Below are positions 482-31,337 of a stretch of DNA of 31,337 bases, one piece after another. Position numbers and translations under genes: made by a program. The stretch is taken from the IMG/VR virus record IMGVR_UViG_3300044940_000083, positions 1 to 31,337 of that record. The stretch is one strand, 5' to 3'. Numbering within the stretch: position 1 is the stretch's first letter; each line of letters begins with the position of its first letter. This DNA comes from a virus. Under the pieces are notes generated by a model that saw only the letters and a program-made list of their open reading frames with translations, was not told the DNA's origin and made no database searches.

Positions 482-808
482 ATTTCCATGCTTGAATAAG
501 CATGGCCGAATTGAAGCTTAATCCCTACGGTTTGTTCCCACTCTTTCACGCGCACATTTCCATGCTTGAATAAGCATGGCCGAATTGAAGCGGATTGTCA
601 CGAGGAAGAACGGCAAGCATTTTTCGAGATTTCCATGCTTGAATAAGCATGACCAAATTGAAGCAGGTTCGTACCGCACCCATTCGCCATTTTCGTTCTT
701 GATTTCCATGCTTGAATAAGCATGGCCGAATTGAAGCAACGTATCCTTCGCGTCTGTTGTGTCTGGCAATGCATTTCCATGCTTGAATAAGCATGGCCGA
801 ATTGAAGC
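482..808 (+). CRISPR. Phage-borne CRISPR mini-array, 5 repeats and 4 spacers
   Basis: Five 36-bp repeats lie at 482-517, 556-591, 629-664, 702-737 and 773-808. They are separated by four unrelated spacers of 38, 37, 37 and 35 bp. Repeats 1, 2, 4 and 5 are identical. Repeat 3 has two G-to-A changes in its right half. Each repeat contains an inverted repeat, CCATGCTT-GAAT-AAGCATGG, giving an 8-bp stem with a 4-nt loop, and ends in ATTGAAGC on the plus strand. That ending resembles the ATTGAAAC-type 5' crRNA tag of many type I and III arrays and suggests plus-strand transcription. No cas genes are in the window and no AT-rich leader adjoins the array: only 32 bp separate it from the upstream gene, and the downstream side runs straight into a convergent gene. 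It probably uses host Cas proteins. Confidence 0.93.
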
Positions 809-2247: not shown

Positions 2248-2405
2248 AACTGACGGCCTCCCATAGGTGCGACAAAATTTCCGAACAAATTGCCAAAAAA
2301 CCATAGTGCGATTATTGGAATAATCAGTATCAGTGCAACGTAGATGACCATGTAGACCACCCACATAGCCCCGTAAACACATCGCCAGAACTTTGATTCA
2401 CTCAT
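2244..2405 (-). CDS. Small membrane protein, 53 aa (holin candidate)
   Basis: This short gene is joined to both neighbours by ATGA overlaps. Its ATG (2403-2405) overlaps the stop of the protease gene, and its TGA (2244-2246) overlaps the start of the next gene. It encodes a 53-residue protein starting MSESKFWRCVYGAMWVVYMV. One long hydrophobic segment covers about residues 12-42 (VYVALILIIPIIALWFF lies within it). The tail is short and glycine- and arginine-containing (MGGRQL). The overlaps and the unbroken membrane segment make it a convincing gene despite its size. Size, topology and position beside an exported protease suggest a holin or pore-forming role. This is inference only; a spanin-like or accessory membrane function is also possible. 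Confidence 0.8.
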   Translation of the reverse strand: MSESKFWRCVYGAMWVVYMVIYVALILIIPIIALWFFGNLFGNFVAPMGGRQL

Positions 2406-3676
2406 CGTAATTCTTTGCGTCTCTGTTCTTCGAGAAGATCGGCCTCACGATAAATCACAGCATAACCTTTCAGCAACGCTTTTTGTTCGCCTTTTTCTGT
2501 CAGCTCATTTCGCTCGATTGAGTTTCGTTCTGCGAACCAGTCGTCGATTTCGATTTTGCGTCTTGGGAAACCCTTCACGCCGGAGACCGCGTAGCTATCT
2601 CCTTGTGCTAATATTCGTGCCATTGTTGGTTCATCGCACCAGAACGAACCATCTGGAATATCCGAGTATTTACCCGCTGGCCCCTTCACCCATTTCGGCC
2701 CCCATGAATTGAGGATCAAATAACCTTTTTTGTCGGCACGGTATCCGATGACCGCCATACAGTGAGCCCACGATCCAGAGGCACGGAGGAACCCTTCGGC
2801 ATCCCGCGTATACGGACCACTCTGACCGAATCCCACATCAGAACAGATGAAAAGTGCGTACCCCTGCCCGAGAGCTTTTTTCGCGTCTTCTGTGGTTTTC
2901 ACTAACGCAACAGAGACAACGGTTTGTTTTTTCGCTTCGGGTTCCAACTCGTCCGGAACGCCCGAATATCCCCACTGTCTGCAACGCGATTCCGAGTAGG
3001 CCGTTAGATCGTAATTGCCGTATTTCCCGCGTGCAAGAACACCGCCAGAGCTAAGCCATTTTGCAGCCCATGCCCCCGTTGAACCGTCGCCATTGAACGG
3101 CACACGCCCCCCATTAACCTCGACCCGCGAACCGCCGTAAATAACCTCCTGCACGAGGTCGGGTAACTCCTGATTTGGCCCACCCTTTCGTAGTGCCCCT
3201 GTCGCTGCCATCGCATACTCGCACGCGGAGGCAGCCCCGAACGCAACACATGATCCCACCTGCCCCTGATTGCGAGATGCGAAGGGTTTTAGGCCGACCA
3301 TCGACCGGCCCCGATTCGCCAGCCGGAACACGAGAGCATCGGCAGTGTCTGCGAAAATGTCGTCCATCTCCGCACGACCCGCAGGAGTGTCCGCGAAGAT
3401 CGGGAACGGCAACGACTGAATGACTTTGTCCCGTTCCGCTTGTGCTATCGGCCTCCACCCGAGGTCAGAAAAATCGGGAAGCGGCGGAAGGTCAGGTTCG
3501 GGAACCGGCGGAGGAACGAACGGCGGAGCATCAGGATTACCACACCCCTGCACGGCCCACGTTCCGAGACCCGCCAGAAACATGATTGCATAGAGTGCGT
3601 ATTTACGCAGATTCCACGAGAAAAACAGCATCACCCATGCTTTTAGTGCAGCCCACGTCGCTTTGATTTTGTCCAT
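2402..3676 (-). CDS. Membrane-anchored papain-like (C1) cysteine protease
   Basis: This 424-residue protein has an N-terminal hydrophobic anchor (about residues 26-43) followed by VQGC, which could be a lipobox. A proline-rich linker (51-68) leads to a papain-fold domain. The oxyanion Gln137 and catalytic Cys143 are in NQGQVGSCVAFG. The catalytic His305 is in GSWAHCMAVIGY, and the Asn323 is in ILNSWG. The triad is intact, so the enzyme is probably active outside the cytoplasm. The usual Cys before Gly-Ser-Cys is Val, which removes a conserved disulphide partner. A charged helical tail ends the protein. It is translationally coupled to a small membrane protein. It may serve in host lysis, envelope breach or processing of surface proteins. 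No muramidase, amidase or endopeptidase of classical endolysin type is present. Confidence 0.88.
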   Translation of the reverse strand: MDKIKATWAALKAWVMLFFSWNLRKYALYAIMFLAGLGTWAVQGCGNPDAPPFVPPPVPEPDLPPLPDFSDLGWRPIAQAERDKVIQSLPFPIFADTPAGRAEMDDIFADTADALVFRLANRGRSMVGLKPFASRNQGQVGSCVAFGAASACEYAMAATGALRKGGPNQELPDLVQEVIYGGSRVEVNGGRVPFNGDGSTGAWAAKWLSSGGVLARGKYGNYDLTAYSESRCRQWGYSGVPDELEPEAKKQTVVSVALVKTTEDAKKALGQGYALFICSDVGFGQSGPYTRDAEGFLRASGSWAHCMAVIGYRADKKGYLILNSWGPKWVKGPAGKYSDIPDGSFWCDEPTMARILAQGDSYAVSGVKGFPRRKIEIDDWFAERNSIERNELTEKGEQKALLKGYAVIYREADLLEEQRRKELR

Positions 3677-8139: not shown

Positions 8140-9207
8140 TTAAAAATCCCCCGATGCACTGACCGCCCACGACGTTTGCTGGCCCTTTTGTTCTGTCATT
8201 TTGGCTTTGATGAATTCCGCGAACTGCGTGAAATTCGAATTCAGTTTCTCGGTTGCCTTGACCTCTGGCGATGCCCCCGATTGCACGGCTAACTGGCGTG
8301 CTTTTTGCCCCAACTCGTAGAAACTCGTGTAGATCGCATTACCAGCCGCAGCACCAACACTACTCTTGTTGCCACCCGGGAAAAGCCCCTGTATCCCGTT
8401 TCCTTCATTGTTCTTGTCAAACCCTAACCGTTGCACCCTAGGTATAAACTTCATCAGGTCGGTTATCTGCCGAAACACCCAGCTAATGACCGAAGCGACC
8501 CGCGACAGAGCGTAGGCCAAATCGAGCAACACCGGTTTCATTTCGATCAGCAGGTCTGCAAAGATTCGCATCGTCATTACGATATTTGGGAGTGATTTTT
8601 CAATTTCTTGCAATACGTCGTCCCACAATTCCACCAATACATCTGCGATGACCGCCAGCGCTTCGCCAAGTGGTTCTGTAATAGGTAACACCTTGCCCAA
8701 ATACCGTTCCGCCATGCTCCCAAATTTCTCGAAAGCCGGAGTCAGATACGAAAAAACTTTCGACCAAATGTAGCCCGTCATCGCCGCAAATTTGGCAATC
8801 GAACCCGCAACAGAAACAACCAGCCTCCCCATGCTCTGGATCGACTGGACAAACTCAGGGGAGGCATTTGCAATCGCATCACCAAACTTGCGAACTAGCG
8901 CAGTCGCCTCGGTCAACACAGGTGCGAGGATTCGACCAAAAACGGCCTGCATGTCCGCGAACGCACGGGTGAATCGGTCGTACACGCCGGGGTTGCTCAA
9001 CGCCACGAATTTGCCAATTAGCTTGTCAACGGAACTCACCGCCCCTGTTATGCTCTCGGTCATTTTCCCGAAAGTGTCGGCCATGCTCTGCATAGCTTCG
9101 GCAATTTTTTTCGGGTTGAGCGAATCCTTTAATGTGTCAAGGAATTTCGTGCCCACTTGAAGGGCCATGCTCTTGGCTTGTGCGAGTAACGCAGCTTGGA
9201 CGGCCAT
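8140..9207 (-). CDS. Tape measure protein (short)
   Basis: The start at 9207 has an excellent ribosome binding site (AAGGAGG, 7-nt spacing). The 355-residue protein is almost entirely helical, with long Ala/Leu/Phe-rich amphipathic stretches and hydrophobic segments (such as VLVELWDDVLQEIEKSLPNI). It ends with a glycine-rich loop and a helical tail. It directly follows the frameshifted chaperone pair, the diagnostic position for the tape measure. At the commonly used 1.5 angstrom per residue it would give a tail of roughly 50 nm, short for a siphovirus. Confidence 0.85.
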   Translation of the reverse strand: MAVQAALLAQAKSMALQVGTKFLDTLKDSLNPKKIAEAMQSMADTFGKMTESITGAVSSVDKLIGKFVALSNPGVYDRFTRAFADMQAVFGRILAPVLTEATALVRKFGDAIANASPEFVQSIQSMGRLVVSVAGSIAKFAAMTGYIWSKVFSYLTPAFEKFGSMAERYLGKVLPITEPLGEALAVIADVLVELWDDVLQEIEKSLPNIVMTMRIFADLLIEMKPVLLDLAYALSRVASVISWVFRQITDLMKFIPRVQRLGFDKNNEGNGIQGLFPGGNKSSVGAAAGNAIYTSFYELGQKARQLAVQSGASPEVKATEKLNSNFTQFAEFIKAKMTEQKGQQTSWAVSASGDF

Positions 9208-9209
9208 GA

Positions 9210-9536
9210 TTACCCCTCCTTCTTTGGTTGACCAGTGGGAACGTTTACCCCCATCGATTTCAACCACGCCGTGCCCGCCTTGACCAACTTACCCGCTTCC
9301 TCTTTGGTCAATTTGTCGTGGTTGATACTCTTGCTTGTCGTTATGGGTTCAGGCTTGCCCGCTTGTGCGGCGAGCCGTTTGCGGGCGATAGTGAACAGAC
9401 GATGGATGTCTTTGTTAGTTGCGTCTGCTAGTTCTGCCCGCGTGACTTCTGGCATCACGACCCGGATGGTAACGTACATATCTTCAAACGATATTACGGC
9501 AGGAGTCCCAGACTCTTGAGGAACTCCGCTTGGGCT
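9210..9536 (-). CDS. Tail assembly chaperone, -1 frame extension (gpT-like)
   Basis: This is the second open frame, translated only as a fusion to the upstream chaperone by -1 frameshifting at 9536-9542. It adds 108 residues (from SPSGVPQESGTPAVISFEDM to PTGQPKKEG) to the first 148 residues of the upstream protein, giving a product of about 256 residues. It has no good start of its own. The segment includes a helical region (AELADATNKDIHRLFTIARK) and a lysine-rich stretch. In lambda and many siphoviruses the fusion protein binds the tape measure and recruits tail tube subunits. The stop is 2 nt before the tape-measure start. Confidence 0.83.
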   Translation of the reverse strand, partial: SPSGVPQESGTPAVISFEDMYVTIRVVMPEVTRAELADATNKDIHRLFTIARKRLAAQAGKPEPITTSKSINHDKLTKEEAGKLVKAGTAWLKSMGVNVPTGQPKKEG

Positions 9537-9979
9537 TTTGGGTCGAGCTTGCTGACCTCCTGGGCAGCAACGTGGATTTCTTCTTTTAGAGCCTCGAAAA
9601 TCACCATGTACTCGGTGCCGCATTCATTCAAAAATTGTGCGACCTCTTCGTCGGTCGCTTTCTCGAACCCTTCGACTTGTGCACGTACCCACGCTGGGAG
9701 GGATGCAGGGGACCCCATGTACGCGAGTAAATCTTGGGTAGTAATTGCATTTGGGTCGGTGAGGCACTTGGCAGCCTCTCGGTAAATCTCCGCACGATCC
9801 TCAGCATTATCGATTACTTTTGCCATCTCGACAAACGTGCGTTGCAACGATTGCCGATAGGCCATTTCCACTGCGGCGAGAACGGCTTGCGTGCGGAACG
9901 ACACGGCACGGAGTTTGCCCTTATAGTTGATTGTTGGCTTGGCCCCATCGTTACCCAATACCGAAATGCGGTCTAACAT
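9494..9979 (-). CDS. Tail assembly chaperone (gpG-like)
   Basis: This is a 161-residue, largely helical acidic protein (core AVLAAVEMAYRQSLQRTFVE), located between the tail tube and tape-measure genes. I place the start at the ATG 9979; a GTG at 9997 in the same frame overlaps the preceding gene by 10 nt and is possible. Near its 3' end the codons CCA-AAA form part of the slippery heptamer CCCAAAA, where some ribosomes shift to -1 and continue into the downstream frame. The unshifted product ends KSLGLLP. Gene order, size and the frameshift signal fit the lambda G/GT family, although sequence similarity is not obvious by eye. Confidence 0.85.
   Translation of the reverse strand: MLDRISVLGNDGAKPTINYKGKLRAVSFRTQAVLAAVEMAYRQSLQRTFVEMAKVIDNAEDRAEIYREAAKCLTDPNAITTQDLLAYMGSPASLPAWVRAQVEGFEKATDEEVAQFLNECGTEYMVIFEALKEEIHVAAQEVSKLDPKAQAEFLKSLGLLP
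9502..9542 (-). promoter_or_regulatory. -1 programmed ribosomal frameshift signal
   Basis: On the minus strand the heptamer CCCAAAA (9542 to 9536) sits in the zero frame as C-CCA-AAA, a perfect X-XXY-YYZ site. Eight nucleotides downstream an 8-bp stem forms between GGAGTTCC (9527-9520) and GGGACTCC (9509-9502), with a 10-nt loop and one G-T pair. Slippery site, spacer and stem all match the standard -1 frameshift element. The frame entered has an open reading frame down to 9210. Confidence 0.88.
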
Positions 9980-9987
9980 GCGTGCGA

Positions 9988-10404
9988 TTATTCCCACTTA
10001 GAAGAAACGAACTTGTTGATGTGGAAAGCCAGCTCGACGTTGTCCATATCGGTGATTGCGGTAGATAGTTTTTCGCCAGTCCAGACCGCTTCCACGACGT
10101 AGCCGATATCCGGTTTCATGACGAGCAGATCGAGAGTAACTGTGGATTCTCCGCCGACGAAGATATCCACGTTTTCCGGCACTTGATCGAGCGTAAACCG
10201 GCCTTTCATTGTGCCCGTGCATTTTGTGCGACCGACACCGGCCTGTTCGAGGCAAAACCCATCATCGCCCACCTCGTCCTCAAAGGTGCTGATATCGTGC
10301 GTGGTCACAGCAGTGTCTATATTCCACTCACCGAGGAAGGTGATGATAACACCGTTGACGCGAACGCGACCATATTTGCCGTGTAGTGGATTGATAGCAG
10401 ACAT
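9988..10404 (-). CDS. Predicted major tail tube protein
   Basis: This is a 138-residue beta-rich protein. It begins MSAINPLHGKYGRVRVNGVI and contains GEWNIDTAVTTHDISTFEDE and repeated strand-turn elements (GTMKGRFTLDQ, GESTVTLDLLVMK), a pattern typical of tail tube proteins. Its position immediately before the chaperone pair supports this. A ribosome binding site AGGGG precedes the ATG at 10404. The stop is 8 nt upstream of the chaperone ATG. Confidence 0.75.
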   Translation of the reverse strand: MSAINPLHGKYGRVRVNGVIITFLGEWNIDTAVTTHDISTFEDEVGDDGFCLEQAGVGRTKCTGTMKGRFTLDQVPENVDIFVGGESTVTLDLLVMKPDIGYVVEAVWTGEKLSTAITDMDNVELAFHINKFVSSKWE

Positions 10405-20886: not shown

Positions 20887-23034
20887 TCATGCGGTTTCCT
20901 TTCTGGTGCAAGGCGTGGGCGCTAGTCGGTAGAACAGCCCCGGCCGGCCGCGTTTCCCGGTGGCCAAAACCTGCGCTTCGACGAGCCGTTGTTGCAGGAG
21001 CGTATGGCGGATTTCTTCGTGCTCTCGGGTCGACCATGGCAGTTTACGGTTGATCTTCCAGAACGGCATCCATTCGTCGCCGTGTTGACGTCGCCACTGG
21101 TCGAGCACGTCGAGCAGGCGTTTCCGCTTGCTGTCAAACTCGCTCTCGCAGGCGTGATGGCGGGCCATGTAGAGCATCCGCCGGGTCTGATGCTCAACGA
21201 ACGCCCCGGCCCAGGTCGCCGCCTCGGGCGTGACCACCGGGGTGTCGCGGCACACGCTCACTGCGTACAAGAGCGCCAGGCGTCTGGCCTTCTCGTAGGC
21301 CCGTGCCCAGATGGCCATGCCGGCCGGGTCGTTCTGAGCTTCCGCCCGGGCGTACTCGGCATCGGCTCGTTCGCGGATGGAGCGAAAGACTACCTCGGCT
21401 TCCGGCGTCTGCGGTACGCGGTGCGGGGCCGGGTGCCAGCCAGCCAGGTTCCCCGCTTTCCCTGGGCGATACTCGGCCCACCAGCGGGCCGCCTCAAGGA
21501 TCGAGGCGGGAATTGGCAGCTCGGTGTCGTCGCGGCCGACACCACGCCCGCGGCATTCCAAGATTAGCATACGCGCCAGAAAGCCGTTTGTCAACAGCCG
21601 GGCCGACAACGCCTCGTAGAAGTGCTTGGGCACGGCGGTGCCGAACATGCAGAGGCACGGCTGGTCGATGACGGTGCGTTCCTGGTTCGCCTTCGCCCGC
21701 ATGACGTAGATGCTGCTGGCCGACGAGTACATCTGCAGCAGCATCGACACGATGGCCTCGTGCCGGGCGTCCCGGGCCTGTCCGACCCGCATCAAGAGCC
21801 CATCGATCTCGTCCACCTGGAACAGCGTGGCGGGCTGCAAGAACATGCGGTCTTCGATCCCCTCCCCGCTGGCGAAACTGGTCCCGAGGCAGTCGGCGAG
21901 CCCGGCTTCGTACAGGATGCGAGCGTTGACCTTCCTGGCGTGGTCCTTGCCGACACCAGAATTTGCCAAACTCAAGACGTACAGGTTCGTTCGGTTGTCC
22001 ATCGTATCCTTTACTTTTCTTCCTGCAAGCAATGCTTGCAGGGAGAGCGCCCCGGCGAAGGCCAGCACGGGCTCGGGGTACGGGGCGGTGTCGAGCGTGT
22101 ACCGCATCACCTCGTCGATGAAGCCGGGCACGCGGAGCAGCTCGTCGGGGATCGGTCCCGGGTCCGGAGCTTCGGTCTCGGGTTCGTTCTCGTCAGCGGC
22201 CGCTTGCATCTGGATGTAATGGTTCTCGGCCAGCGCGACGGCGACCTGATCCGGCTCGTAGCGGGCGATGCTGGTGGCGATCCGCTCGACTTCGCGGGGC
22301 GACAGCGGCGGCGAGCAGCGGTCCGTGTTGGTCTGGTGCAGCGCGGCGGCGATCTCAGCCTGGGACATTCCAACGCGGCGCATCGCTCCGGCCAGGCGTG
22401 CCAGGGTCGCGTTGCGTTGGCCTTCCGGGATCGGGTTAGCGTCTTGCCCGGCCGGCGCCGCGAGCGGCCCACGGTTTGCCGCTCCGTTCCGTTCCGGTGA
22501 GCCCAGCGCGTCAAGGACGGCGACCAGCCACGCGGGCGGCTCCGGCAGTCGGTCGAGCGGGTCGTCAAGCTCTAATCCATCAACCCATTGATATATCCCA
22601 GACTCAGTCGCCGACGGTGCGACTACGATGTAGCCGCCGTCTGTGCGGACATCGACACCGGGAGCGAGCTTACCGGCTGAGCACTTCCAGCTCTTGCCCT
22701 TGTCCTCGGGCCGACGGAATATGTAGTGCCGGCCGCCTCGTGGCGTCACGGCTATGGCCCCGGCATTAGCCAGGTCGGCGGCTCGATCAGGATCACTTGG
22801 CCAGGGGTTGTTGGCTCCGTCGATGTCGATGACCAGTAGGCCTTCGGTGGCGATGCCGATGTTAGCCCGCGGGTGTTGCGACCACCAGCGTTCGATCTGG
22901 GCCGCGTCCGTGGAGGCATCGTGGAAGCCGCGCTCGGTGAGCGGTGCCTTGCCCCCAGGGGCGCACGGGAACACGCGATAACCATGCCCCGCATAGCGGA
23001 GAGCAGCAGCCAAGAGATCGTCAGTAGTTACCAC
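20887..23034 (-). CDS. PrimPol primase-helicase
   Basis: This is a 715-residue replication protein. The N-terminal PrimPol (archaeo-eukaryotic primase) domain has VIDIDG with Asp70 and Asp72, and GGRHYIFR with His103. A PriCT-like helical domain follows (EGQRNATLARLAGAMRRVGM, about 204-260). An ATPase/helicase domain comes next, with Walker A NSGVGKD (358-364) and Walker B LFQVDEID (404-411). The Walker A Ser/Thr after Lys is Asp, which is unusual. It primes and unwinds DNA in the phage replisome. It starts with GTG, overlaps the helicase stop by 7 nt and ends beside the putative origin. Confidence 0.9.
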   Translation of the reverse strand: MVTTDDLLAAALRYAGHGYRVFPCAPGGKAPLTERGFHDASTDAAQIERWWSQHPRANIGIATEGLLVIDIDGANNPWPSDPDRAADLANAGAIAVTPRGGRHYIFRRPEDKGKSWKCSAGKLAPGVDVRTDGGYIVVAPSATESGIYQWVDGLELDDPLDRLPEPPAWLVAVLDALGSPERNGAANRGPLAAPAGQDANPIPEGQRNATLARLAGAMRRVGMSQAEIAAALHQTNTDRCSPPLSPREVERIATSIARYEPDQVAVALAENHYIQMQAAADENEPETEAPDPGPIPDELLRVPGFIDEVMRYTLDTAPYPEPVLAFAGALSLQALLAGRKVKDTMDNRTNLYVLSLANSGVGKDHARKVNARILYEAGLADCLGTSFASGEGIEDRMFLQPATLFQVDEIDGLLMRVGQARDARHEAIVSMLLQMYSSASSIYVMRAKANQERTVIDQPCLCMFGTAVPKHFYEALSARLLTNGFLARMLILECRGRGVGRDDTELPIPASILEAARWWAEYRPGKAGNLAGWHPAPHRVPQTPEAEVVFRSIRERADAEYARAEAQNDPAGMAIWARAYEKARRLALLYAVSVCRDTPVVTPEAATWAGAFVEHQTRRMLYMARHHACESEFDSKRKRLLDVLDQWRRQHGDEWMPFWKINRKLPWSTREHEEIRHTLLQQRLVEAQVLATGKRGRPGLFYRLAPTPCTRKETA

Positions 23035-25814
23035 GGGATATCGTCCTCCTGCGCATTAGCCCCAAACGGAAAATCGAATGCGTCATCGCTCAGTGGCCCA
23101 TCATCATAGGCATCACCACGATCCAGCAACTCGGGGATCGGACCCAACTCATAGTCGGTGATGCGGTCGTACTCCTCACCAGAGACAGACCGGACGGTGA
23201 TGGACTTGGTGGTAGCCAAACCGCCGGCGTTAGCGATTTCGACGGCCTCGGCCGCCGTCCTCGGCACCGGCTCTTTGGAGCGTGCCTTCCACCACGATTC
23301 CGCCTTTCGCCTGGCGTATCCGGTGTGCTCGAAGCAGACCCATTCCGACTTCCAGCGGTGCCAGCCGATCTTGTAGTCCACCCGCATCGACTTGGGCGCG
23401 TCTTGGCTTGCGCCCCGCTTGGTGTGGACACTGTACATCACGTCCCGCACCGGCAGCGTCTCGACGGTCACCTGGCCTGAGAGGATGCCGGCGCCGCTAG
23501 CCTTGGCCGCGTGCTTGGCCCGCTCCGGCGGCGGGAACTCGTAGCCGCACTCCGGGCAGACCGTATACCCGGCCGAGATCAGTGCTTGGCACTTTGGACA
23601 CTCCTTCGCCGGGGCCGGGGCGGTGCCAGTGCTAGCGTGTCCCTTGACCCGAATCTGATCGACCGGCCCGTGCCGCAGCACGTTGCCGCCGTAGTCGAGC
23701 ACCAGACAGTTCTGCTTGCTCGGGTGCAGTCGGAAGCCGCGGCCGCAATTGCCGACGATGGCCACCTTCCCATTACGTCGCGTCACCAGTGTTCCTTGCT
23801 CAGTCGTCAGACACCAGACCCATTCATTCGGGGTGAATGGCACAGGCTGAATCTGGCAGCGTTTCGCTCCAAGCGGTGAATGGTCAACCCGTGTCCCGCC
23901 AATCCACGCGACCCGCTGTGGTTTGATCCGAAGGATCCACTGCCGTTGAGGATGAGCGTTCCAATCGCTGGGCTTGGGGTCCACGGTCGCAATGTTGCAC
24001 CGAAAGCCACGTTCGATCGCCAACTGCTGAATCCGGTTTGCCATGCGTTGCCGACACCCGACCGCGATGTCCATGACCCTCGGCCGATAGTTGAGGGTGG
24101 TTTGATTCGTGCCATTGGCTTGATTCATGGCGTGAAGTAGGATGCTAAATTGCCGCGAACTGAGCGTATCAAAAACCGCAGGAATATCTTTGTCGATCCA
24201 GTCGGCTAATGCAGACCAGCCTCTCCCACCTGCTCGTTCCCCACGCGGTGCCCCGTGTGGGATGACGAAATTGATCCCGTTGTCATAGCCACGCTGTTTG
24301 CCGACCCGAACCAGTTCGTACTCGCAAAAACCGAATCCGCATCGGGTTAACAATTCGCGGACTTCCTTAGCGTACTTGGCCTTCGATTGACTGATTGTGA
24401 TGGTGCCATTGGCTCGGTTGTGGTAGCCGTCGGTCAGAAACCAGCCAATGAATCTGACTTCGTCGTCGCTTAGTGGGGTGTCCGTGCAATGAGCGTTGCC
24501 TTGACCAGCCACCGGGATCACAAAACTTTCACGACGTCGAGCCGCTTCTTGGGCCGTCTGCAAATGCCAATGAATGCATGAATGAGATCGACCGCGAACG
24601 ACAAGATTGTGCCCGTCCGTGAGGCGAATATCTAGATGTGGTGCCGTGACGCCCATCATCGATTCGTGGGGACAGAGGGGCCGATGGATTTTGTCGAGAG
24701 CTGGCCCGTAAACAATCTCATTAGTTTTCATGTCAAAGGATGCCACGATGTCTCCTTTAATCACTTCGTGGCATCGTCGCCAGCCGGATTTGGTCAGAAC
24801 CTCAGTCTCCATATCGAGACACATCTGGTAGTAGAGCCCCGGCGACAGCGTGGGGCGCAGCAAGGCCACGCAGTCGATGTTGGGGGCATCGAAGCCCGTG
24901 GTCAGCACGTTGACGTTGCACAGGTACTTCAACCCCCCGGCCTTGAACCGGGCCAGGGTCGCGTCTCGCTCCTCGGTGGGCATGTCGCCCGTGACGAAGC
25001 CGCAGTCGATACCATGCTCGTCTCGCATCACTTGCACGATGTGCTTGCCATGGGCAACCCCAGACGCAAAGATTAGCACAGCCTGTCGCTCGCGGGTCTG
25101 CTCGACGATCTCGGCACATGCGGCCCGCACCAGCTCGTCATCATCCATCAGAGCCTCAACCTCGTCGGCGATGTACTCGCCGCCTCGAACGTGCAGGTCT
25201 GAGGTGTCGGCTTTCACCTTGCCGGCCTTGGTGACGAGCGGACATAGGTAACCCTGTACGACTAGCTCCCGCACCTCGACCTCGTAGCAGACGTGATTCA
25301 GGACCCCATCCGGCGTGCAGATTGAGCCGGTCTTGAGCCGGAACGGCGTGGCCGTCAGACCGATGACGCGGAGGTGCGGATTGATCACTTTGGCCTCGGC
25401 GAGGAATGTCCGATACATGCCGTCCCCTTCGGGTGTGATGAGATGAGCTTCGTCTACGAGTACCAGGTCGAAGGCCCCTAGTTCGCAAGCCCGCTGATAC
25501 ACCGACTGGATGCCGGCGACGATCACGGCGTGCTCCGTATCTCGCCGCCCCAGCCCGGCCGAGTAAACGCCGAACGGCACCTCGGGGCAGATGGCCCGTA
25601 GCTTGCCCGCCGTCTGCTCCAGTAGCTCCTTGACATGGGCAAGGACCAACACCCGCCCACCCCACTGAACGACAGCATCTCGGCATATCGTAGCGATGAC
25701 TGGCGTCTTGCCGCCTCCAGTCGGGATGACCACACACGGGTTGTCGTCCCGCGTCCGCAGGTGGTCGTACACCGCCTCAATGGCCGCACGCTGATAGTCG
25801 CGAAGGGTCAGCAT
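23028..25814 (-). CDS. DEAH-box SF2 helicase interrupted by an intein
   Basis: This is a 928-residue precursor; after splicing the helicase would be 570 residues. Motif I is PTGGGKT (31-37), motif II DEAH (121-124), motif III TAT (154-156), and the second RecA domain includes VLTTGFDAPN. Motif VI is split: QM (330-331) is followed by the intein, then CGRGFR (690-695). The C-terminal extein has a zinc ribbon (Cys739, 742, 753, 756) and an acidic tail ending EDDIPW. It probably acts in replication or recombination and lies directly upstream of the primase-helicase. GGAG is 10 nt before the ATG at 25814. Confidence 0.93.
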   Translation of the reverse strand: MLTLRDYQRAAIEAVYDHLRTRDDNPCVVIPTGGGKTPVIATICRDAVVQWGGRVLVLAHVKELLEQTAGKLRAICPEVPFGVYSAGLGRRDTEHAVIVAGIQSVYQRACELGAFDLVLVDEAHLITPEGDGMYRTFLAEAKVINPHLRVIGLTATPFRLKTGSICTPDGVLNHVCYEVEVRELVVQGYLCPLVTKAGKVKADTSDLHVRGGEYIADEVEALMDDDELVRAACAEIVEQTRERQAVLIFASGVAHGKHIVQVMRDEHGIDCGFVTGDMPTEERDATLARFKAGGLKYLCNVNVLTTGFDAPNIDCVALLRPTLSPGLYYQMCLDMETEVLTKSGWRRCHEVIKGDIVASFDMKTNEIVYGPALDKIHRPLCPHESMMGVTAPHLDIRLTDGHNLVVRGRSHSCIHWHLQTAQEAARRRESFVIPVAGQGNAHCTDTPLSDDEVRFIGWFLTDGYHNRANGTITISQSKAKYAKEVRELLTRCGFGFCEYELVRVGKQRGYDNGINFVIPHGAPRGERAGGRGWSALADWIDKDIPAVFDTLSSRQFSILLHAMNQANGTNQTTLNYRPRVMDIAVGCRQRMANRIQQLAIERGFRCNIATVDPKPSDWNAHPQRQWILRIKPQRVAWIGGTRVDHSPLGAKRCQIQPVPFTPNEWVWCLTTEQGTLVTRRNGKVAIVGNCGRGFRLHPSKQNCLVLDYGGNVLRHGPVDQIRVKGHASTGTAPAPAKECPKCQALISAGYTVCPECGYEFPPPERAKHAAKASGAGILSGQVTVETLPVRDVMYSVHTKRGASQDAPKSMRVDYKIGWHRWKSEWVCFEHTGYARRKAESWWKARSKEPVPRTAAEAVEIANAGGLATTKSITVRSVSGEEYDRITDYELGPIPELLDRGDAYDDGPLSDDAFDFPFGANAQEDDIPW
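23748..24821 (-). other. Intein (358 aa) with LAGLIDADG-like endonuclease domain
   Basis: This protein-splicing element is inserted in helicase motif VI, from Cys332 to Asn689. The N-terminal splicing block is CLDMETEVLTKSGW. Block B is LTDGH (Thr399, His402). The C-terminal block ends RRNGKVAIVGN, and the downstream extein starts with Cys690. The penultimate residue is Gly instead of the usual His. The endonuclease region has RFIGWFLTDGYH (454-465) and a second motif LLHAMNQANGT (559-569). The second motif has lost the usual acidic residue, so cleavage activity may be weakened. The DNA looks less GC-rich than the surrounding helicase. Joining the exteins restores QMCGRGFR, a canonical motif VI. 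Confidence 0.93.
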
Positions 25815-29208: not shown

Positions 29209-29288
29209 CTGCACTGACACTCGGAGTGCAGCTCTGCTGCGGACTGGCTCTTCCCTACCCAGACATCATGCGAGTCTCGCCTGATGTC
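29209..29288. promoter_or_regulatory. Two palindromes in the leader of the HTH-receiver operon
   Basis: CTGCACT (29209-29215) pairs with AGTGCAG (29225-29231). A 27-bp near-perfect palindrome at 29262-29288 consists of GACATCA, one base, GCGAG, T, CTCGC, one base, TGATGTC. The second overlaps the stop codon of the upstream XRE gene. Without a following uridine run on the minus strand these look more like operators or RNA structures than intrinsic terminators. Confidence 0.45.
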
Positions 29289-29517
29289 ATTCTGAGTTAT
29301 TATTGCTGGCCTCGTCGCTCTGATTACAGACCAGAGCAGCCACGGTGACCCCCAGAGCGGCAGCTATCTGGGGCAACCGGTGTGCTCGTGGGGCTAGCCC
29401 ATGTTCCCATCCGGCCACTACCGACTGGTGAGTGCCGAGGCGAGCAGCCAGTTGCTTCTGTGTCAGTCCGGCGGCCAGTCTGGCCGCACGGATTCTATCG
29501 GATATGTGTGATTTCAT
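29287..29517 (-). CDS. XRE-family regulator (paralogue A)
   Basis: This is a 76-residue Cro/CI-type helix-turn-helix protein: RIRAARLAAGLTQKQLAARL, then GTHQSVVAGWEHGLAP, ending in a polar Asn/Glu tail. It is nearly identical in its core to the protein at 29788-30018. The ATG overlaps the upstream stop (ATGA), so it is translationally coupled. It probably regulates one of the two divergent promoter regions of the phage. Confidence 0.85.
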   Translation of the reverse strand: MKSHISDRIRAARLAAGLTQKQLAARLGTHQSVVAGWEHGLAPRAHRLPQIAAALGVTVAALVCNQSDEASNNNSE

Positions 29518-29787: not shown

Positions 29788-30018
29788 TCATCTCCTTTTC
29801 TTTTTCTGGGCGGTTCCCCCGCCCAGAAGGTGCTCAAGTGTAGTGCCCAGTATCTCTGCGATCTGGGGCAACCGGTGTGCTCGTGGGGCTAGCCCACGTT
29901 CCCATCCGGCCACTACCGACTGGTGAGTGCCCAGGCGAGCAGCCAGCTCCGCCTGCGTCAGCCCGGCGGCCAGTCTGGCCGCACGGATTCGGTTTGCTAC
30001 TTTTATGGTTGTATCCAA
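29788..30018 (-). CDS. XRE-family regulator (paralogue B)
   Basis: This is a 76-residue helix-turn-helix protein: RIRAARLAAGLTQAELAARL, GTHQSVVAGWERGLAP, ending in a lysine- and arginine-rich tail (AQKKKRR). It starts at TTG (30018) with GGGG about 5 nt upstream; no better start is available. A 130-bp core is nearly identical in DNA to the copy at 29366-29495, so the two genes arose by recent duplication. The different tails suggest diverged roles. Confidence 0.8.
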   Translation of the reverse strand: MDTTIKVANRIRAARLAAGLTQAELAARLGTHQSVVAGWERGLAPRAHRLPQIAEILGTTLEHLLGGGTAQKKKRR

Positions 30019-30831: not shown

Positions 30832-30859
30832 TTGACTTTTTAGCCCGCTGGGATAATAT
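30832..30859 (+). promoter_or_regulatory. Strong rightward sigma-70-type promoter
   Basis: TTGACT (30832-30837) and TAATAT (30854-30859) are separated by 16 nt, within a generally AT-rich region. The start point would be near 30866. The 64-residue gene at 30943 follows with a good ribosome binding site. If the genome is circular, this promoter also feeds the 87-449 gene and the CRISPR array. Confidence 0.75.
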
Positions 30860-31146: not shown

Positions 31147-31337
31147 AATGCCCGTTTAGGGCATTCGACATCCCGGCCTCGCCGGGATGTTACCCAGTGG
31201 TCCGCGTGGATTACTGAGACCTGTTTCCCCCGCCATCGCCGTGCGGGCGGGGGATGAGATGTGCAGAGTGGCCCGCCCCCCTGGGCGGGTTAATGCCCCA
31301 GCGCCGCGACGTGCGGGCGCTGGCCGTCACAAGGCGG
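31147..31337 (+). other. Cluster of GC-rich hairpins after the rightward early gene
   Basis: Five inverted repeats follow the stop of the 64-residue gene: AATGCCC/GGGCATT (31147-31165), ACATCCCGGC/GCCGGGATGT (31168-31190), CCCCCGCC/GGCGGGGG (31227-31253), CCCGCCC/GGGCGGG (31272-31289) and CCAGCGCC/GGCGCTGG (31298-31323). None is followed by a uridine run, so they are not standard terminators. The last unit (31290-31337) is related to positions 1-57. The stretch could be a structured noncoding RNA or intercistronic leader. Confidence 0.6.
31290..31337 (+). repeat. Repeat unit shared between the two ends of the window
   Basis: TTAATGCCCCAGCGCCG at 31290-31306 is identical to 1-17. Both copies continue with a loop, GGCGCT, then CCG-TCACAA, in the same order. 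Copy 31290 is preceded by GGCGGG and the window ends in GGCGG. Joining end to start therefore gives two tandem units of about 48-57 bp with matching upstream context. Similar but not identical sequence argues against a simple terminal redundancy. Confidence 0.7.

Follow-up and report, generated by a model that had tools for sequence, protein, structure and literature searches.

A leaderless, cas-less type I-G CRISPR array with four spacers in a probable Gemmataceae phage, and its possible use of host effectors

A CRISPR array on a phage genome that holds no detectable cas genes raises the question of whose effectors the array would serve and against what. The window analysed here corresponds to a whole IMG/VR record (31,337 bp) in which genes for terminase, portal, tape-measure, primase/helicase and recombination proteins are present, and the array occupies positions 482–808. 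It is composed of five 36-bp repeats and four spacers, all on the + strand, and the repeat consensus is ATTTCCATGCTTGAATAAGCATGGCCGAATTGAAGC (36 nt). Repeats 1 (482–517), 2 (556–591), 4 (702–737) and 5 (773–808) carry the consensus, and repeat 3 (629–664) has two G-to-A substitutions and a hairpin shorter by one pair. The spacers are 38 nt (spacer 1, 518–555, TTAATCCCTACGGTTTGTTCCCACTCTTTCACGCGCAC), 37 nt (spacer 2, 592–628, and spacer 3, 665–701) and 35 nt (spacer 4, 738–772) in length; they are mutually unrelated, and none resembles the remainder of the window. Direct repeats at regular intervals, separated by unique spacers that vary little in length, are what define a CRISPR array, and this is the arrangement found here; the number of repeat matches expected from dinucleotide-preserving shuffles is 0. 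The repeat is predicted to fold into a stable hairpin (−10.2 kcal/mol, z −2.75) whose 8-bp stem closes a 4-nt loop; 4 nt separate the hairpin from an 8-nt handle, AUUGAAGC. The sequence-only reading, which had described five hairpin-forming 36-bp repeats and four distinct spacers, was confirmed exactly, one copy having the two substitutions; the unrelated dispersed repeat that it had considered as an alternative is not what was found, the 36-bp repeat being absent from the window outside the array.

No cas gene was detected in the window. Searches by tblastn with five I-G cas families taken from four genomes gave no match at 1e-6, and a PADLOC scan of ten window proteins returned only generic helicase and methyltransferase matches and no Cas protein; this is not a phage-encoded complete CRISPR-Cas system. 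On the same strand as the array, and with its stop codon 32 nt upstream of it, lies an ORF of 120 aa (87–449, + strand) that had no match in Pfam, PADLOC or PHROGs and no phage relative; the array may be co-transcribed with it. On the other side, convergent with the array, is a gene for an SNase-like endonuclease (816–1142, − strand). No promoter-like site was found in positions 1–1300. A sigma-70-like promoter, recognized by consensus match only, is located at 30832–30859 (+ strand) in a rightward unit at the record's other end, and in a circular or permuted genome its transcripts would run towards the array.

Repeat 5 comes within 7 nt of the SNase stop codon, and the product of that gene matches only 75 of the 107 positions of the Pfam SNase profile. 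Both features could speak for an assembly artefact, in which a host CRISPR array was fused to a phage contig via a common spacer/protospacer, and the start of a related phage contig, G002, described below, indicates that such joins probably occur with the very same repeat. The position of the window array makes this reading very improbable, since the array lies inside the record with sequence to either side of it, so that two joins would be required, and neither a leader nor a cas gene adjoins it. In trinucleotide composition the left 481 bp are also phage-like, at a distance of 0.21 where other stretches average 0.26, and they begin with a 17-bp intergenic element (1–17, + strand), an exact copy of which at 31290–31306 ties the array's left flank to the opposite end of the record. 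Further against an artefact, a phage-type array is also found in the Gemmataceae genome G417 (below), within a prophage that is part of a 9.0-Mb contig.

The class of the repeat was approached by scanning genomes for tandem copies of its 3′ half, with GGCCNNATTGAAGC required twice at CRISPR spacing, a scan that returned at least 118 genome stretches from many phyla. The layout TCC-stem-loop-stem-GGCC-NN-ATTGAAGC is common to most of the at least 118 stretches listed, and cas8g, cas7g, cas5/6g and cas4/1g or cas3g adjoin several of them; the same repeat architecture is observed beside I-G genes in L029, L104, L016, G412 and G417. Because I-G cas genes lie beside several arrays of the same layout, the window repeat belongs to the type I-G (I-U) class, and the array at 482–808 is a real CRISPR array of type I-G (formerly I-U). 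In a published I-G system Csb2 cuts 4 nt past the hairpin and leaves an 8-nt handle (PMC9638904), and the window repeat shows the same geometry of hairpin, 4 nt and 8-nt handle. The published I-G PAM is TTN; the protospacers of two G412 spacers lie beside TTC and ATT, and that of the spacer joined in G002 lies beside TTT. The window array is like the I-G systems of Thioalkalivibrio sulfidiphilus (PMC9638904) and of the Gemmataceae genomes G471, G412 and G417 in its 36-nt repeat, hairpin geometry, 8-nt 5′ handle and 35–38-nt spacers, and the TTT beside the G002-joined spacer is in keeping with them; it differs from them in that the phage has neither a cas operon nor a leader.

Within this class, the details of the repeat point to a host family. 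The GA dinucleotide ahead of ATTGAAGC was present in 4 of 118 arrays among the matches listed, and all four GA-bearing genomes belong to one family, presumably Gemmataceae (Planctomycetota). A relaxed form of the repeat was matched in 26 of 95 Gemmataceae genomes. The exact 36-mer is absent from the GTDB species genomes; when up to three mismatches were allowed, none of 392 Planctomycetota genomes contained the phage repeat, and one of 102 genomes of the order did, the Gemmataceae genome G471. The G471 repeat, ATTTCCATGCTTGAATGAGCATGGCCGAATTGAAGC, is identical to the window repeat at 35 of 36 positions, and the single difference converts an A-U stem pair into G-U with the same predicted fold. 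In G471 the array sits at the edge of its contig, and what precedes it is a leader-like stretch together with a Cas2-like ORF and a complete cas set (cas3g-cas8g-cas7g-cas5/6g-cas4/1g). Comparison of the repeat with planctomycete genomes, proposed at the outset as the way to find a matching host system, did lead to one, a complete type I-G locus in a Gemmataceae genome. With a 35/36 repeat and a complete I-G locus in G471, a matching effector exists in Gemmataceae, and the repeat makes this the probable host family of the window phage. The earlier description of a cas-less mini-array, carried by a phage that probably infects planctomycetes, is accordingly supported, by the negative tblastn and PADLOC searches and by the Gemmataceae repeat match. 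Nothing similar to the G471 leader is present anywhere in the window. A partial G471 spacer that matched phage G400 at 21 of 26 positions was discarded, as 1 of 150 control 26-mers did equally well and the match had no TTN PAM.

All four window spacers came back empty from the searches for targets. There was no useful match for any of the four among INPHARED phages and PLSDB plasmids, none of them matches the sister phages described below, and degenerate-codon scans of IMG/VR with spacers 1, 2 and 3 were empty. The proposal to trace the spacers in databases was thus followed through in phages (INPHARED, the sisters, and IMG/VR for three of the spacers) and in PLSDB plasmids and yielded no protospacer, so that use of the array against rivals is a matter of what we infer. 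The spacers are not conserved in the sister phages, as they would be if they were ordinary intergenic sequence, a possibility that the sequence-only reading had raised. Matches of the spacers to the phage itself, at the protein level and at the seed level, are at chance level only, and no seed match beside TTN in the window or the sisters is longer than 9 nt. The seed result also bears on a regulatory role, in which partially complementary spacers would bring host Cascade to promoters of the host or the phage and repress them with no cleavage. Regulatory crRNAs have a precedent in crRNA-like regulators such as CreA/CreR, and in related arrays the spacers show no more than partial matches to the genomes that carry them. 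The partial matches in the G417 prophage are, however, equally compatible with diverged relatives, and with no seed match above 9 nt beside TTN in the window or its sisters we consider repression the least probable of the readings weighed here, with a very slight chance of being right.

The explanation that we favor, at a probability of roughly 0.6, is that 482–808 is a cas-less, leaderless four-spacer type I-G array of a Gemmataceae phage which borrows host effectors, probably for use against rival phages. Because the phage repeat is nearly identical to a Gemmataceae I-G repeat, the phage probably supplies guide RNAs to the host immune machinery. The + strand would be transcribed during infection, probably because transcripts of the short gene at 87–449 extend into the array, and the host I-G Cas5/6 (Csb2) would cleave each repeat 4 nt past the hairpin to yield four crRNAs with the 5′ handle AUUGAAGC. 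These crRNAs would load into host Cas7/Cas8g complexes, and Cas3 would be directed to DNA beside a TTN PAM. Competing related phages are the likely targets, with the carrier phage holding no matching sequence, and occupation of the host effectors by phage crRNAs would be a side effect. Against this explanation stand the lack of protospacers, of a G471-like leader and of a promoter match directly upstream, together with a host repeat that is one base off, an exact repeat that occurs in no genome searched, and the two substitutions in repeat 3.

The sister phages offer a second view of the same repeat. The sister set was obtained by terminase alignment (a single-sequence search for relatives of the major capsid gene gave none), and the identical 36-mer is present in two IMG/VR phages, G001 and G002, whose core proteins are 49–52% identical to those of the window and whose DNA, beyond the repeat, has in common with it a few short stretches of 67–87% identity. 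The repeat is solitary in both, in sense orientation between two genes of one early operon (L006 10896–10931 and L007 5293–5328, − strand). Occurrence of the same repeat at different places in otherwise diverged genomes is best explained by an outside template, namely the host repeat. By analogy with Racr (PMC10651486), the solitary repeats of G001 and G002 are candidate type I-G RNA anti-CRISPRs: each of these phages has one isolated, identical repeat in sense orientation in an early operon and no cas genes, whereas the window has a five-repeat array and no promoter was found immediately upstream of it. Subtype I-G/I-U is unmentioned in the main text of PMC10651486. The stretch that follows the solitary repeat in G001 was considered as tRNA-like and rejected, since ARAGORN and Rfam searches were empty and its fold was no better than that of shuffles.

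The G002 contig opens (L008 1–122) with the last part of one repeat; a spacer of 37 nt and a full repeat come next, and the sequence then passes directly into a tape-measure gene. This gene is intact in G403, where the match begins at the first base past the repeat (G403 14041; L183 241) and is preceded by the three bases TTT. The G002 start is probably a chimeric assembly join, leaving a CRISPR array via a spacer identical to a phage gene. If the join reflects such an assembly path, an array with the very same repeat has a PAM-correct spacer against this phage group, and that array would be either the host's or a rival phage's.

These observations bear on decoy action, the main alternative to guide supply, in which the repeats of the window would mimic those of the host, soak up Csb2/Cas7 and blunt I-G immunity, the spacers being incidental. 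The Racr-like gene layout of the identical solitary repeats in G001 and G002 is consistent with such a role, as is the PAM-correct spacer that an array with this repeat has against their group (G002/G403), and a degenerate repeat 3 and spacers with no target found would fit it as well. Five repeats with regular 35–38-nt spacers nevertheless exceed what a decoy needs, and the comparable array of the G417 prophage has spacers related to phage genes; we regard decoy action by the window array as unlikely. Guide supply by the window and decoy action by its sisters could also coexist. One Gemmataceae phage group might put one host I-G repeat to two opposed uses, as a four-spacer array against rivals in the window and as a solitary RNA anti-CRISPR of the G001/G002 type, with that group itself hit by arrays that carry the repeat. 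We put this forward tentatively, as a possibility that falls well short of even odds; if true, it would amount to a CRISPR-mediated conflict between sister phages fought via the host type I-G system.

An array comparable to that of the window is found in the Gemmataceae genome G417, which has its own I-G locus with a long array and, in addition, a prophage whose terminase is related to that of the window (E 2e-104) and lies ~16 kb from a six-repeat array. The region of the prophage array is also catalogued as viral in IMG/VR (L158 1–430; L197 14600–15010). Three of the prophage spacers are diverged copies of the prophage's own genes 0.7–3 kb distant, and the differences between spacer and gene fall in the seed, the PAM or the PAM-distal part. 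Viral mini-arrays have been reported to target relatives while sparing the carrier (PMC6858448), and diverged self-like spacers of this kind are as expected if relatives are the targets; they thereby support, indirectly, the proposed use of the window array against rivals. The prophage repeats have their last 14 nt in common with the main array of the host, and the stem is not shared and differs in sequence in nearly every repeat of the prophage array; in this group, then, the repeats of phage and host need not be exactly identical, a point that counts against the favored explanation. The viral contig L157, which encodes a related capsid protein, also carries an array of this repeat class, with five repeats.

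A scan of IMG/VR for the repeat class returned 31 stretches (L134–L164), many with 2–8 repeats, and an I-G cas protein match was found in only one of them (L150), which suggests that phages may often borrow I-G effectors. Some of the contig-end arrays among the 31 may be host DNA. The viral contig L152 contains scattered I-G-like repeats (9085–10277) whose stems are of three kinds; one of these repeats matches the window repeat at 29 of 36 positions. In two more such contigs, L134 (353–377) and L155 (356–379), part of an array spacer matches, with mismatches, DNA of the same contig that lies no more than ~1 kb from the array.

Virus-borne mini-CRISPR arrays have been described in the archaeal portogloboviruses SPV1 and SPV2 (PMC6858448), and phage mini-arrays, defined as having one or two spacers, have been reviewed (PMC11656645). 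The window array resembles both in its intergenic position on a viral genome without cas genes, in the absence of a self-match, and in a repeat that is, or nearly is, that of a system of the host family (35/36 to G471 in the window); the spacers of the related G417 prophage, moreover, resemble nearby own genes with mismatches, as in SPV. It differs in its I-G type, in a planctomycete host family, in targets that were not found in the databases searched, in having four spacers and not one or two, and, with respect to the SPV arrays, which have a leader, in being leaderless. In view of the one-or-two-spacer definition, we call the window array a variant and not a plain member of the mini-arrays. 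Viral mini-arrays and RNA anti-CRISPRs are already known (PMC11656645, PMC10651486), and the new elements here are the I-G type, four spacers without a leader, a probable host in the Gemmataceae and sister phages in which the repeat stands alone. Experimental tests of viral mini-arrays have been made in archaeal viruses; the present case is a bacterial one tied to a probable host family and a subtype (Gemmataceae, I-G), and specific predictions follow from it, both for sequence comparison and for plasmid interference.

Several further features of the record were observed outside the array region, all on the − strand. A tRNA-Ile gene with the anticodon TAT is positioned at 1603–1675, and 2402–3676, downstream of the tail genes, encodes a protein of 424 aa that has a papain-family cysteine protease domain. 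A helicase ORF of 928 aa (23028–25814) seems, by eye only, to contain an intein-like insertion that starts with CLDMETEVLTKSGWRRCHEVIKGD and ends with VGNC. Two HTH repressor-like ORFs (29287–29517 and 29788–30018) overlap a 133-bp direct duplication, the copies of which are 93% identical.
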